From NCBI RefSeq assembly GCF_013391105.1, contig NZ_CP058335.1, positions 496,001 to 560,000 of the forward strand: a DNA stretch of 64,000 nt, given 5' to 3'. Origin of the DNA: Natronomonas salina (lineage in GTDB: Archaea; Halobacteriota; Halobacteria; Halobacteriales; Haloarculaceae). Shown one piece after another: positions 7,392-18,700 of the stretch (position 1 is its first letter; each line of letters starts with the position of its first letter). The notes below the pieces were generated by a model. The model worked only from the letters and a program-made list of their open reading frames with translations, was not told the DNA's origin and made no database searches. Made by a program: the position numbers and the translations under genes.

Positions 7392-7587
7392 CGTATATTC
7401 TACCGACGTGGACCTGATACAAACACGTTCGCATCGATTCTCCATCTGACTGTCGCGGAACCGGAATCACGGACCAAAGCATCCGCGCGAGCAGAGCGAG
7501 CGCGGTAATCGACGGCGAGCGATGCGTGGCGCGAACGAAGTGAGCGCCACGGGAATGCGAACGGCGAGCGGAGCGAGCCGTGAGCAG

Positions 7588-7677
7588 CGAGCCGCCGTAG
7601 CGTTCGGAAATCGCCCTTGGCGATTTCCGCAGCCCGTCAGAAGTGCTTCGCACTTCTGAGGACGCCCGACGACTAAC
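7588..7677 (-). repeat. 90-nt structured intergenic repeat, copy A
   Basis: Read on the minus strand, these 90 bases match 17430-17519 (plus strand) at 88 positions. The repeat carries two perfect hairpins: CAGAAGTGC-GAA-GCACTTCTG and GGAAATCGCC-AAG-GGCGATTTCC. A third hairpin at 7677-7705 (stem CGCTGGCCC/GGGCCAGCG) precedes it, and a U-tract hairpin at 7733-7785 opens the element. No coding frame is conserved in a convincing way. The flanking bases 7450-7587 contain more GC-rich dyads (for example GTGGCGC/GCGCCAC) but no gene. Confidence 0.8.
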
Positions 7678-7732
7678 GCTGGCCCGAACGGAGTGAGGGC
7701 CAGCGGCTGGAGGAGGGCGCGCCTATTTACAC

Positions 7733-7785
7733 CCACGTTTTTGCCGCGAGGCGCGGCGGAGCCGCGCCGAGCGTGCAAAAAGTGG
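7733..7785 (-). terminator. terminator-like hairpin 3' of the SDR gene
   Basis: Directly after the stop at 7791 (minus strand) comes CCACTTTTTGC, then a perfect GGCGCGGC/GCCGCGCC stem (7750-7757 with 7761-7768, loop 58-60), then GCAAAAACGTGG. The outer TTTTTGC/GCAAAAA arms also pair. The same arrangement follows the ThDP enzyme gene at 17335-17371, where it likewise opens the repeat element. Confidence 0.55.
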
Positions 7786-7790
7786 AGGTT

Positions 7791-8570
7791 CTAGAAACTG
7801 AAGAGGTCGATGCCGCCGGTGACGCCGATGACCTGGCCGGTGATGTAGTTGGACTGCTCGGAGGCGAGGTAGGCGACGAGATTGGAGACGTCCTCCTCCT
7901 TGCCGAGCTTGCGCATCGGGGTGGCCTTCGCGATCCGGGCGAAGTGCTCGTCGACCTGCTCGAGCTGGTCGATGGGGAGGTCGGCGAGCTGGCCGACGAC
8001 GATGCTGGGAGCGATGACGTTCGAGGTGACGCCGTGCTGGGCGCCCTCGAGGGCGAGCGTCTTGCCGAAGCCGATGAGCGCGGCCTTCGTCGCGGAGTAC
8101 GAGAGCTGGCCGAAGCCGCCCTGCCAGCCGGCCATCGAGGACATGTTGATGATGCGGCCCCACTCCCGCTCCTTCATGTGGGGATAGACCTCCTGGGTGA
8201 TGTTGTAGGCGCCGGTGAGGTTGACGGCGATGTCGCGGTCCCAGATGTCGTCGTCGAAGTCCTCGACCTTGTCGCGGGCGTCGACCATCCCGGCGTTGTT
8301 CACGAGGATGTCGATGCCGCCGGTCTCCTCCTCGAGGGCGGCGACGGTGTCGGAGACGTCGGCGCGGTCGGTGAGGTCGCACTCGACGGCGTGGGCGGTC
8401 GCGTCGTAGTCCTCCTCGAGTTCGTCGACGACGTTCTCCGCCTTGTCGAGGGCGACGTCGAGGACGACGACGTCGGCGCCCTCCTGGGCGAGTACGCGGC
8501 AGTCTTCGCTCCCGATACGTCCGGCACCGCCGGTGACGAGGGCGGTCTTGTCGTCAAGTCCGAAGTCCAT
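7791..8570 (-). CDS. SDR oxidoreductase, acetoacetyl-CoA/3-oxoacyl reductase-like
   Basis: A short-chain dehydrogenase of 259 residues: TGGAGRIG (13-20), D38 at the end of beta-2, NNAGM (91-95), Ser144/145, and YSATK with Tyr158 and Lys162. The general look (INMSSMAGWQGGFGQLSYSATKAALIGFGK) resembles PhaB/FabG-type 3-oxoacyl reductases, which would fit the acyl-CoA genes around it, but D38 suggests NAD(H). The start at 8570 has a TATA-like CTTATAG at about -27. Its 3' end is followed at once by a terminator hairpin and repeat copy A. Confidence 0.85.
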   Translation of the reverse strand: MDFGLDDKTALVTGGAGRIGSEDCRVLAQEGADVVVLDVALDKAENVVDELEEDYDATAHAVECDLTDRADVSDTVAALEEETGGIDILVNNAGMVDARDKVEDFDDDIWDRDIAVNLTGAYNITQEVYPHMKEREWGRIINMSSMAGWQGGFGQLSYSATKAALIGFGKTLALEGAQHGVTSNVIAPSIVVGQLADLPIDQLEQVDEHFARIAKATPMRKLGKEEDVSNLVAYLASEQSNYITGQVIGVTGGIDLFSF

Positions 8571-15555: not shown

Positions 15556-15632
15556 CGTCCCGTCGCCCACTTCCCTGAGGGCCGGTCGCCGAAGGGATGA
15601 ACTATTTATCGGTGGCAACGACAGGAAGAGCC

Positions 15633-17327
15633 ATGGCAAATTCCTACACGGGAGCGGATCTCTTCGTCGACGCACTCGAGCAGTACGGCGTCCAGCACGT
15701 CTTCGGCAATCCCGGGACGACGGAGCTGCCCATCATGAACGCGCTCTCCCACAGCGACCTGGAGTACGTCCTCGGCCTCCAGGAGGACGTCGCCACGGGG
15801 ATGGCCGCCGGCTACGCCTCCACCCGCCGCTACCACGCCGACGACGACCCCGACGTCAACCCCGTCGGCGTCGTCAACCTCCACGTCACGCCCGGCCTCG
15901 CCCACGGGCTCGGCAACGTCTTCGGCGCGATGTACGGCGGCGCCCCGGTCGTCGTCACCGCCGGCAACCACGAACTGGACTTCCGGCACGAGGAGCCCAT
16001 CCTGACCGGCGATCTCGAGCGACTCGTCGACCAGTTCTGCAAGATGTCCGCGGAAGTCACCCACGTCGACTCGCTGCCGATGCTGCTACGCCGGGCGTTC
16101 CGTGTCGCGCTGACGCCGCCGACCGGTCCCGTCTTCCTCGCGCTTCCGGCGGACGTGATGCAGACCGAGACCGACCGCACGCCCGAACGCCTCGGCCCGA
16201 TCCCGGACGCCGGCCGCGGCGACCCCCAGCAGATCGAGGCCGCCGCCGACTACTTCGTCGAGGCCGACCAGCCCGTGCTGGTGCTGGGCGACCACGTCGC
16301 CCGCGCCGGCAAGCAGGCCGTCGACGCCGCCATCGAACTGGCCGAGGCTGCCGGCGCGCGCGTCCACGGCGAGATCCTCGCCAGCGAGGTGAACTACCCC
16401 ACGGAACACGACCACTGGATCTCCTTCATGGCCGCCGACGAGGGGCTGGCCTCGATGATGATGGACACCGACACGCTGGCGCTGGTCGGCACCTCCACGA
16501 ACACGACGCTGCTCCGCCACGAGAACCCGCTCGTCGACGAGGACACGACGACCATCCAGATCTCCAGCGACCCCTGGGAGGTCGGGAAGAACCACCCCGC
16601 CGACGCCGCCGTCGTCGGCGACCCCGGCCACGTGATGGGCGAGATCGCCGAGCGCGTCGACGACCGCCTGGACGACGAGGAGCAGGAAGCCCGTGCCGAC
16701 TACGTCCAGACAATGAAGCAGTCGCTGGCGGGGACGATGCAGGACATCGGCGAGGACGAGAAACCCGAGGGCGACGAGCGCTCCTCGAAGGCCGAACTCG
16801 TCGACAACATGATCGAGGTCGACGACGAGGTCTACATCGTCGACGAGGGGGTCACCTCCAAGTTCGCGATGCTCACCCGCTTCCCGTTCGACAAGGAGCA
16901 GTACCTCTCGAACAAGGGCGGCGGTCTCGGCTACGGCCTCCCGGCGGCCGTCGGCGCCGCCTTCGCCGAGTCCATCCAGGACGACCCCCGGACCGTCGTC
17001 GGCTACGTCGGCGACGGCTCGTACCTCTACTACCCCCACTCCATCTACTCCGCCGCCCGGCACGACCTCGACCTGACGGTCGTCGTCTCCGACAACCGCA
17101 ACTACCGGATCCTCAAGAACAACACGCTGAAGATGCTCGGCGGGGAGGAAGCGGACTACGACTTCGTGGGGATGGACTTCGACCCCCACGTCGACATCCC
17201 GAAGAACGCCGAGAGCCACGGCGCCCGCGGCCACCTCGTCGAGACGCCCGAGGCGTTCCCCGACGTCTACGAGGAGGCCCTGGAGTCGAGCGGCACCGAC
17301 GTCATCGACGTGCTCGTCCACGACTGA
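15633..17327 (+). CDS. ThDP-dependent enzyme, benzoylformate-decarboxylase/acetolactate-synthase-like
   Basis: A thiamine-diphosphate enzyme of 564 residues with all three domains. The N-terminal motif FGNPGTTELP holds the cofactor-activating Glu, and NLHVTPGLAHG holds a His matching the active-site His of benzoylformate decarboxylase. The Mg/ThDP motif begins GDGSYLYYP and ends SDNRNY. It should decarboxylate or carboligate a 2-keto acid. The ATG at 15633 is preferred over 15597 because ACTATTTATC at 15602-15611 is a TATA box at the right distance. It lies directly behind the TRAP transporter genes, so the imported compound may be its substrate or precursor. Its 3' end carries a terminator hairpin and repeat copy B. 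Confidence 0.87.
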   Translation: MANSYTGADLFVDALEQYGVQHVFGNPGTTELPIMNALSHSDLEYVLGLQEDVATGMAAGYASTRRYHADDDPDVNPVGVVNLHVTPGLAHGLGNVFGAMYGGAPVVVTAGNHELDFRHEEPILTGDLERLVDQFCKMSAEVTHVDSLPMLLRRAFRVALTPPTGPVFLALPADVMQTETDRTPERLGPIPDAGRGDPQQIEAAADYFVEADQPVLVLGDHVARAGKQAVDAAIELAEAAGARVHGEILASEVNYPTEHDHWISFMAADEGLASMMMDTDTLALVGTSTNTTLLRHENPLVDEDTTTIQISSDPWEVGKNHPADAAVVGDPGHVMGEIAERVDDRLDDEEQEARADYVQTMKQSLAGTMQDIGEDEKPEGDERSSKAELVDNMIEVDDEVYIVDEGVTSKFAMLTRFPFDKEQYLSNKGGGLGYGLPAAVGAAFAESIQDDPRTVVGYVGDGSYLYYPHSIYSAARHDLDLTVVVSDNRNYRILKNNTLKMLGGEEADYDFVGMDFDPHVDIPKNAESHGARGHLVETPEAFPDVYEEALESSGTDVIDVLVHD

Positions 17328-17334
17328 GCACCCA

Positions 17335-17371
17335 CTTTTTGCACGGGCGGCCTTCGGCCGCCCGGCAAAAG
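17335..17371 (+). terminator. terminator-like hairpin 3' of the ThDP enzyme
   Basis: CTTTTTGC at 17335-17342, then a perfect GGGCGGCC-TTC-GGCCGCCC stem (17345-17363), then GGCAAAAG. The outer TTTTGC/GCAAAA arms also pair. It has the same form and position as the hairpin after the SDR gene at 7733-7785. Confidence 0.55.
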
Positions 17372-17400
17372 CTTGGGGAAAATATGCGCGCCATCCTCCG

Positions 17401-17430
17401 TGCCGCGGCGCTCACTTTGTTCGCGCCGCG
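17401..17430 (+). ncRNA. hairpin of the structured element, with paired changes between copies
   Basis: CGCGGCGC (17404-17411) pairs with GCGCCGCG (17423-17430) around the loop TCACTTTGTTC. In copy A (minus strand, 7677-7705) the stem is CGCTGGCCC/GGGCCAGCG while the loop is TCACTCCGTTC. Both stem sides changed and pairing was kept, which argues for selection on RNA or DNA structure. Typing as ncRNA is tentative. Confidence 0.4.
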
Positions 17431-17519
17431 TTAGTCGTCGGGCGTCCTCAGAAGTGCGAAGCACTTCTGATGGGCTGCGGAAATCGCCAAGGGCGATTTC
17501 CGAACGCTACGGCGACTCG
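17430..17519 (+). repeat. 90-nt structured intergenic repeat, copy B
   Basis: Matches copy A (7588-7677, minus strand) at 88 of 90 bases. Hairpins are CAGAAGTGC (17449-17457) with GCACTTCTG (17461-17469), and GGAAATCGCC (17479-17488) with GGCGATTTCC (17492-17501). Both are perfect in both copies. The remaining spacer to 17797 holds further GC-rich dyads and one TTCTTAAGTACGATAA segment near 17582-17600 that may be a promoter, but no gene was recognised. Confidence 0.82.
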
Positions 17520-17797
17520 GCCTGCGGCCTCGTCGCCGCGGACCGCGCTCCCTCCGGTCGCGCGGTTTCTGGACCTGACCCGGCTTCTTAAGTACGATAA
17601 CCCGACCAGACAGCCCGTGCTCTGAGCAGCCACCGACGGGCCGCCGAGGCGGTAGCGAGGTGGCGGAGTCACCTCGATGCGAGCGGTGAGCGGAAGCGAG
17701 CCGCGAGCGCGACCCACGGCTCGTCGAATTAGCGGGTCGCCTGTACGCAGTTCCGGAAACGGCAGGGATATCACGGCAACGCGGCAACACCGATGAC

Positions 17798-18700
17798 GTG
17801 TCCAGGGCCTACGCCGCCACGATGTTCGCCGCCCTCGCCGTGATGTGGGGCCTCTCCTTCCCGGCCATCTCCGTCGGCCTCGAGTACCTCCCGCCGCTGC
17901 TGTTCGCGGCGTTCCGCTACGACGTCGCCGCCGTGCTCCTCCTGGGCTACGCCGTCGCGACGACCGACACCTGGCGGCCGGTCGGGTGGAACAACGTCTC
18001 GGCCATCCTCGGGGGCGGCGCGTTCCTCATCGCCGGCAACGGGCTGCTGTTCATCGGCCAGCAGACCGTCCCCAGCGGCGTCGCCGCGATCCTGCAGGCG
18101 CTCGTCCCGATCCTCACCGCGCTGTGGGCGCTCGCACTGCTCGGCGAGCGTCTCTCGGCGGTCGGCGCGGTCGGCGCCGGCCTCGGCTTCCTCGGCGTCG
18201 GGCTCATCGTCCAGCCCGACCCGAACAACCTGCTGGCCGGCGACACCGTCGGCCGACTCATCATCGTCGGCCAGGTGGTCCTGGTCTCCCTCGGCGGCGT
18301 CATCGTCCAGCGGGCCGGCCCCACCATGGAACGGGTCGCGCTGACCGGCTGGTCGATGCTCGTCGGCGGACTCCTCCTGCACGCCTTCAGCCTCGGCGCC
18401 GGCGAGCTGCCCGGAGCGAGCGCGCTGTCGTCGACCGCCGTCGGCGCCGTCGTCTACCTGGGCGTCTTCTCGACGGCGCTGGCGTTCCTCATCTACTTCA
18501 CGTTCCTCGAGGAGCGCGGCGCCTTCGAGACGAGCCTCGTGGCCTACCTCGTCCCGGTCGTGGCGACCGTCGCCGGGGTCTTCCTGCTCGACGAGACCAT
18601 CGGCCTCCTCTCCGTCGCCGGGTTCGTCGTGGTCTTCGTCGGCTTCGCGTTGCTGAAACGCCACGCGCTGGTCGACCTCGTCGGCGCCGGCGTCAGTTGA
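17798..18700 (+). CDS. EamA/DMT-superfamily transporter
   Basis: A ten-helix drug/metabolite transporter of 300 residues made of two EamA repeats (about residues 8-140 and 150-290). Typical features are MWGLSFPAISVGL near the start and the closing helix VAGFVVVFVGFALLKR. It probably exports a metabolite such as an amino acid or keto acid. The start is GTG at 17798; no in-frame ATG lies just upstream. It is convergent with the CoA-transferase gene, overlapping its 3' end by 8 bases. Confidence 0.85.
   Translation: MSRAYAATMFAALAVMWGLSFPAISVGLEYLPPLLFAAFRYDVAAVLLLGYAVATTDTWRPVGWNNVSAILGGGAFLIAGNGLLFIGQQTVPSGVAAILQALVPILTALWALALLGERLSAVGAVGAGLGFLGVGLIVQPDPNNLLAGDTVGRLIIVGQVVLVSLGGVIVQRAGPTMERVALTGWSMLVGGLLLHAFSLGAGELPGASALSSTAVGAVVYLGVFSTALAFLIYFTFLEERGAFETSLVAYLVPVVATVAGVFLLDETIGLLSVAGFVVVFVGFALLKRHALVDLVGAGVS

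Follow-up and report, generated by a model that had tools for sequence, protein, structure and literature searches.

A probably mobile, RPE-like double-hairpin module of Halobacteriales within a stop-codon-proximal repeat of Natronomonas salina

Introduction

CGTC-tagged REPs, whose units bear a CGTC (or TGTC or CCTC) tag at one end and are mostly arranged as head-to-head dimers, occur in five bacterial phyla and in some cases lie in frame within ORFs, the Rickettsia RPEs being among them, and the accessible text of their description reports no associated transposase (PMC3733652). REPINs and GTAG-REPs with RAYT are defined by a GTAG tag and a linked RAYT. Fungal mitochondria harbor compact elements of two adjacent hairpins, which are organellar and thought to be mobile, and which resemble the module treated here by description. 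In Archaea, only IS200-type TnpA of subclass 1.1 has been reported, according to the accessible part of PMC6006769. The nearest archaeal elements to the module, as far as the accessible text of PMC3119063 extends, are the PATEs and SMRs of Haloquadratum.

Here we analyze a 64,000-nt stretch of the Natronomonas salina genome (the window), in which a preliminary description made from the letters alone had noted a 90-nt repeat with two perfect hairpins, proposed to be a 3' UTR RNA, a small RNA or a REP/MITE-like element. The 64-nt core of this repeat is very probably a non-autonomous, RPE-like mobile palindromic element, as judged from its presence and absence between species.

With CGTC-tagged REP dimers and RPE-4/RPE-6, as described in the accessible text of PMC3733652, the module shares two stem-loops in head-to-head order, heterodimers and a short length, and most of its copies bear a CGTC tag at one outer end. 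Both occur between genes or in frame within ORFs (where the bacterial elements add 20-30 aa), and for neither has a dedicated transposase been found. The module differs from them, so far as that text describes them, in being archaeal, in its second tag (CGTT) and in the CG on both sides that is deduced from empty sites. The stems of CGTC-tagged REPs are 8-9 bp and start with AT, whereas those of the module are mostly 9-10 bp and start with TCAG..; the loops are 4-5 nt versus mostly 3 nt, and the unpaired tail is CCA versus a TGGGCTG linker. Because the stem, loop and tail definitions differ in this way, the module is not filed as a member of the CGTC-tagged REPs. From REPINs and GTAG-REPs it is set apart by its CGTC tag and by the 75 of 240 module-bearing genomes that give no Y1 transposase match. 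Like the SMR-A element of Haloquadratum, the module is transposase-free and inserts into palindromes of other repeats, but SMR-A, in the accessible text of PMC3119063, has a length of about 110 bp, bears terminal inverted repeats and leaves no target duplication, whereas the module is a double hairpin of 55-64 nt with CG on both sides. In the literature on in-frame or REP-like haloarchaeal palindromes we did not find the module described, which is a weak negative, subscription papers being mostly outside the literature covered.

The composite repeat in the window

A repeat search of the window returns an inverted pair (7588-7679 and 17428-17519) of 92 nt with 98% identity, in agreement with the 88 of 90 matching positions counted earlier. 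Both hairpins are perfect in copies A and B, as had been claimed, and their patterns are absent from 100 shuffles; reading of the ORFs likewise bears out a TTTTTGC...GCAAAA hairpin 3' of the stop codon and in the direction of the gene at both loci. The repeat is confirmed, but its 90 nt do not form a single unit: they divide into a 64-nt core module and a remainder that belongs to an outer repeat (Table 1). The window feature is a composite, in which a probably mobile, RPE-like double hairpin lies within a stop-codon-proximal repeat. Folded as RNA, a 93-nt stretch lies far below its shuffles (z -6.2), and a second fold of the window repeat is also strong (z -6.6). Searching the genome with the 93-nt block gives five near-full copies (93-100% identity) and one diverged copy, together with many sites that match one end alone and more diverged copies of the module only. 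Of the five composites of module and outer repeat in this genome, two lie in the window; recombination between outer repeats, and not five insertions of the module, may account for the spread of these five.

Table 1. Features of the two composite copies, in window coordinates (bit scores refer to the covariance model of the module)
Feature	Position	Strand	Remarks
Double-hairpin module, copy A	7601..7664	-	64 nt, CGTCC-hp1-linker-hp2-AACG; 87.7 bits to model R1
Hairpin 1, copy A	7638..7658	-	CAGAAGTGC GAA GCACTTCTG
Hairpin 2, copy A	7606..7628	-	GGAAATCGCC...GGCGATTTCC
Outer repeat A	7478..7788 (approximate bounds)	-	L214; from stop-codon side to GCGGATGCT; contains the module
TTTTTGC...GCAAAAA hairpin, outer repeat A	7738..7781	-	directly 3' of SDR gene stop codon
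Conserved core, outer repeat A	7712..7733	-	GGTGTAAATAGGCGCGCCCTCC
Putative SDR-type gene	7791..8570	-	stop codon precedes outer repeat A; name from sequence alone
Double-hairpin module, copy B	17443..17506	+	64 nt; 90.2 bits to model
Hairpin 1, copy B	17449..17469	+	perfect stem
Hairpin 2, copy B	17479..17501	+	perfect stem
Outer repeat B	17331..17569	+	L211; 3' end diverged, GCGCGGTTTC in place of GCGCGGATGCT
TTTTTGC...GGCAAAA hairpin, outer repeat B	17336..17370	+	3' of stop codon
Conserved core, outer repeat B	17375..17396	+	GGGGAAAATATGCGCGCCATCC
Putative ThDP-dependent-enzyme-like gene	15597..17327	+	stop codon precedes outer repeat B; name from sequence alone

Anatomy of the module and pairing of its stems

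The module is 55-64 nt long and consists of CGTCC, stem 1, a TGGGCTG linker (present in 176 of 205 distinct modules), stem 2 and AACG. Among the same 205 modules, the stems are 8-12 bp (mostly 9-10), the loops are mostly 3 nt and hairpin 1 mostly starts with TCAGAA. The start is CGTCC in 144 of 154 flank-distinct copies and TGTCC in four, while the other end is mostly AACG (= CGTT), and the inverted match between the ends is limited to CGT/ACG. From the module alignment and the 205 parsed modules, the arrangement is that of a head-to-head dimer with its tags outside.

The stems vary in sequence (119 variants of stem 1 and 153 of stem 2) and nevertheless pair, both being perfect in 152 of the 205 modules. 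A pattern blind to hairpin 2 (9 of its 114 occurrences were dropped as having no recognizable end) recovers 78 distinct stems of hairpin 2, of which 63 are perfect. In the module alignment, changes on both sides are seen at 12 of 26 pairs, and one-sided changes are absent among those pairs. The mismatches among 3908 stem positions comprise 22 G.T, 18 A.C and 26 others, with no excess of G.T over A.C (p 0.64). If an RNA were kept on one strand, G.U should be tolerated more readily than A.C, so the near-equal counts point to a constraint on DNA; taken together with the lack of one-sided changes in the 12 pairs, they argue for DNA palindromes and not for an RNA.

Occupied and empty insertion sites

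Orthologs from the same genus lack the insert in all six aligned sequences for TrpB, in nine of nine for NAD kinase (three of the 12 other genus genomes being left out, as their matches are split or end at the site) and in four of four for an alpha/beta hydrolase (leaving out two paralogs, L339 and L340, and the matches L336 and L337, which begin only past the site). The occupied hydrolase is in the N. salina genome itself (G000:11651). At conserved sites, one CG is present when the site is empty and CG stands on both sides of the insert when it is occupied, some orthologs having a changed base. In TrpB, for example, the occupied CGC-GACG[insert..GGACG]-ACC compares with the empty CGC-GACG-ATC. 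The same contrast of a single CG with flanking CG is found at AAAAACG^TCGATG sites, and in tnpB, five empty matches of the form GAATCAACG^CCTG (one with TCTACG) among the loci examined stand against 23 occupied copies. Flank preferences are moderate (C or T at +1, G at -2), and there is no strict longer target.

Judged from these pairs, the comparisons show the module to insert at CG and to leave CG on both sides. The flanking CG could be read as a target duplication, and an IS605-type insertion with CG at its right end would look identical. The contexts of the module include the outer repeat, stretches between genes, AAAAACG^T sites, tnpB (in sense orientation) and enzyme genes, in which it lies in frame.

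Copies within genes

The calling of intragenic copies relied on the GC content by codon position, scored across the 210 nt to either side, and not on annotation. After removal of copies with identical flanks, 224 of 254 remained, eight of them lying at contig edges, with 16 in frame, one frame-broken, 23 at the tnpB site and 176 in none of these classes. The 16 in-frame copies among 17 clearly intragenic ones exceed an expectation of one third (p 2.7e-7) and the proportion among non-genic copies (odds 33, p 6.7e-7), the unit of this mod-3 test being copies, which are not proven independent events. The net length is 60 nt for 15 of the in-frame copies and 57 nt for one. All 23 tnpB copies also have a net length of 60 or 57 nt, but share one common site and are not independent events, whereas the 176 non-genic or other copies are of mixed lengths, divisible by three in 57. 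Reading frames are broken by L179 (the strict call) and by L078 (seen by eye).

All 16 in-frame copies are antisense to the host gene. In each of 14 copies scanned in six frames, the frame used is the antisense frame in which the CG is split C3|G1, which is open in all 14; sense frame 0 is also open in all 14, yet is never used. The frame used has the lowest mean hydropathy (-1.52 versus -1.05 across the 14 copies). Use of a single frame, the most hydrophilic one, despite an open sense frame 0 makes selection at the protein level the simplest reading of the in-frame copies.

The insert adds 19-20 mostly hydrophilic residues to unrelated enzymes. Pfam names among 20 scanned proteins are ECH, NAD kinase, PALP (TrpB), LeuRS, DsbH/DUF255, DUF2797, NTPase_I-T, methyltransferase, MinD/ParA, AAA_18, PurL-like AIRS, LplA, DUF5807, alpha/beta hydrolases and TnpB, with no family for two of the 20. 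Eleven of the 16 strict in-frame hosts carry different Pfam names, L118 and L151 were scanned without a match, and the scan leaves out L138, L220 and L281. A Pfam domain spans or surrounds the insert in TrpB, LeuRS, NTPase_I-T, MinD/ParA, AAA_18, LplA, DUF2797 and ECH. Alignment to solved structures places the TrpB insert between IGLFHAFR and DDPVEFYGAE, and the NAD kinase gave no match to solved structures. Some hosts (LeuRS and NAD kinase) are expected to be essential.

Where the module is inserted in tnpB (L085, L092, L170 and others), it is close to the 3' end of the gene. In TnpB systems, the 3' stretch of tnpB overlaps the guide RNA, of which the module might become part.

Taxonomic range and mobilization

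A covariance model built from 17 copies extends the search proposed earlier to other haloarchaea and finds the module in 240 of 293 Halobacteriales genomes (E 0.001), the copy counts per genome being lower bounds (18 candidates per genome). In a sample of 294 genomes from the phylum, 38 match at E 1e-6, all within Halobacteriales, and there is no match outside that order. Across genomes from 84,980 species, the exact two-part pattern occurs in at least 114 stretches, and all 80 of those listed have haloarchaeal titles. The module family extends across the order Halobacteriales and has so far been found only in salt-loving archaea. IMG/VR viral sequences give no match to the exact module pattern, and a plasmid tblastn search with a 21-aa peptide, a query too short to be informative, gave none either.

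A Y1 transposase is detected in 186 of the 293 Halobacteriales genomes; module and Y1 occur together in 165, the module alone in 75, Y1 alone in 21 and neither in 32. The two are associated in presence (odds 3.35, p 1.2e-4, uncorrected for phylogeny or incompleteness), and the copy number of the module is independent of Y1 (p 0.25). No mobilizing enzyme was found. A Y1 transposase is undetectable in the 75 genomes with the module alone, and is not necessary for the presence of the module; it is a candidate mover.

It is rather unlikely that the module is a terminal-only IS605 derivative (PATE), in which the palindromes from the left and the right end of an IS200/IS605 element are joined and moved by TnpA. 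The terminal-only PATEs known from Haloquadratum resemble the module in being haloarchaeal and transposase-free, at about 52 bp with two palindromes, but in the accessible text of PMC3119063 they are not described as in-frame inserts. The association with Y1 and the location of some module copies near IS605 genes also fit such an origin, but the IS605 elements that were read carry the module inside tnpB and not at the ends, no element ending in the two module halves was seen among them (a set outside a systematic search), and the genomes without a Y1 match carry the module all the same. In one genome, L115 and L103 (G109:C1:1855408 and 1856805) flank a Y1 transposase gene at 1855992-1856354, one of the two being in frame in tnpB.

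The outer repeat

The outer repeat set comprises 16 copies, 15 from a search of the genome with the conserved core and L039. The order of parts is CCCACTTTTTGCAC-hairpin-GGCAAAAAC, followed by GGGGAAAATATGCGCGCCCTCC and more hairpins, with the end at GCGGATGCT. Fourteen of the 16 begin 2-20 nt 3' of the stop codon of a long ORF on the same strand with a clear coding signal; in the remaining two, the coding signal is weak in one and absent in the other. The module occupies one fixed site in five outer repeats, and the site is empty in seven and unrecognized in four. Occupied sites read ..GGGYGTCCTC (n=5) against ..GGGCGCTAC when empty (n=7), and an empty ..GTAGTCGTCGGGCG^CTACGG.. compares with ..GGGCG-TCCTCAGAA...CCGAACG-CTACGG.. 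in the window. Outer repeats that lack the hairpins at the matching site imply that the 64-nt module has been set into a longer repeat. The position of the outer repeat would fit a 3' repeat associated with terminators, and this is the part of the earlier 3' proposal that survives. Behind orthologous or related ThDP-enzyme genes, no outer repeat is present in seven of seven same-genus loci in which the 3' side was read.

One could suppose that the composite spreads as a transcription-terminator repeat by supplying a good 3' end, the double hairpin being part of the terminator. This explanation would account for the T5/A5 hairpin directly behind stop codons and for the lineage-specific presence of the composite at the ThDP-enzyme locus, but at least seven of the 16 outer repeats have no module at the same site, and in other genomes the module occurs without an outer repeat; the hairpins are therefore not needed for a terminator, and we regard the explanation as distinctly improbable.

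A conserved 3'-UTR regulatory RNA, or a small RNA processed from the 3' ends of catabolic genes, has very little probability left, since its support from strong folding (both z scores), from outer repeats behind stop codons in gene direction (14 of 16) and from the two-sided changes in the stems is outweighed by the genomic spread of the module (antisense in coding sequence, sense in tnpB, at unrelated intergenic sites), the balance of G.T and A.C mismatches, the outer repeat missing at the seven loci above, and the absence of any Rfam family at gathering score in the window (0 matches; ALIL at 17331-17428 has 20.9 bits against 50 needed). Among the options first offered, REP/MITE-like is retained on the unrelated contexts, empty sites and flanking CG, whereas the lack of strand-specific G.U tolerance in the stems argues against the 3' UTR and small RNA options.

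Proposed mode of spread and implications

As a mobile palindromic element, the module has two inverted DNA hairpins, tagged on the outside by CGTC and AACG (= CGTT), and TGGGCTG as its fixed linker. Its spread would be driven by an enzyme acting on hairpin DNA (single-stranded or cruciform), which may recognize the feet of the stems, the tags and the linker. The in-frame insertions into genes, all in one frame, would be what selection leaves over, and any effects on transcripts at the 3' site would be a by-product of position.

A broader reading, to which we give about even chances, is that the module represents an order-wide archaeal family of protein-invading palindromes with its own CG-duplicating route and repeated additions of hydrophilic segments of 19-20 residues to enzymes, some of them expected to be essential, that is, an archaeal counterpart of the RPEs. 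Its origin would then be either independent or from a common ancient replicator of hairpin DNA.

Rickettsia and other bacteria already provide examples of in-frame palindromic elements, to which the module adds a compact archaeal family with clean pairs of occupied and empty sites. Through the module, indels can arise in haloarchaeal proteins, and its many hosts and the tractable genetics of haloarchaea make the mover, the CG duplication and the effect of the 20-residue inserts testable. It also calls for caution: a hairpin repeat 3' of a haloarchaeal gene is not necessarily a regulatory RNA.

Neighboring and related elements

Downstream of composite B, the stretch 17600-17760 (+), upstream of an EamA-like gene at 17798, may be a structured leader according to its modeled fold. 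It contains CCGTGCnCTGAGCA..GACGGGCCGCC..CGCGACCCACGG..GGGTCGCCTGTTCGC, common to three relatives of the same genus, with an extra insert in N. salina and one relative. RNAalifold predicts 16 pairs, two of them with changes on both sides, and there is no Rfam match to this stretch.

In five genomes, modules of 57-58 nt (L168, L178, L183, L191 and L196) lie in the fixed context ..CACCAGAAATC-hp-GATTTCTGGGGA, module, CTGTATCC... This CACCAGAAATC/CTGTATCC context is another composite of several palindromes, in some genomes near IS605 genes.

A second double-hairpin family (L063, L064 and L052) has the same layout with other motifs, GGTTCGAGAG-hp-CTCTCGTCATCACGAA-hp-TTCGAACGACC, and is found at G000:1067517, at G000:2538450 and in one relative, which suggests a wider group of such modules.
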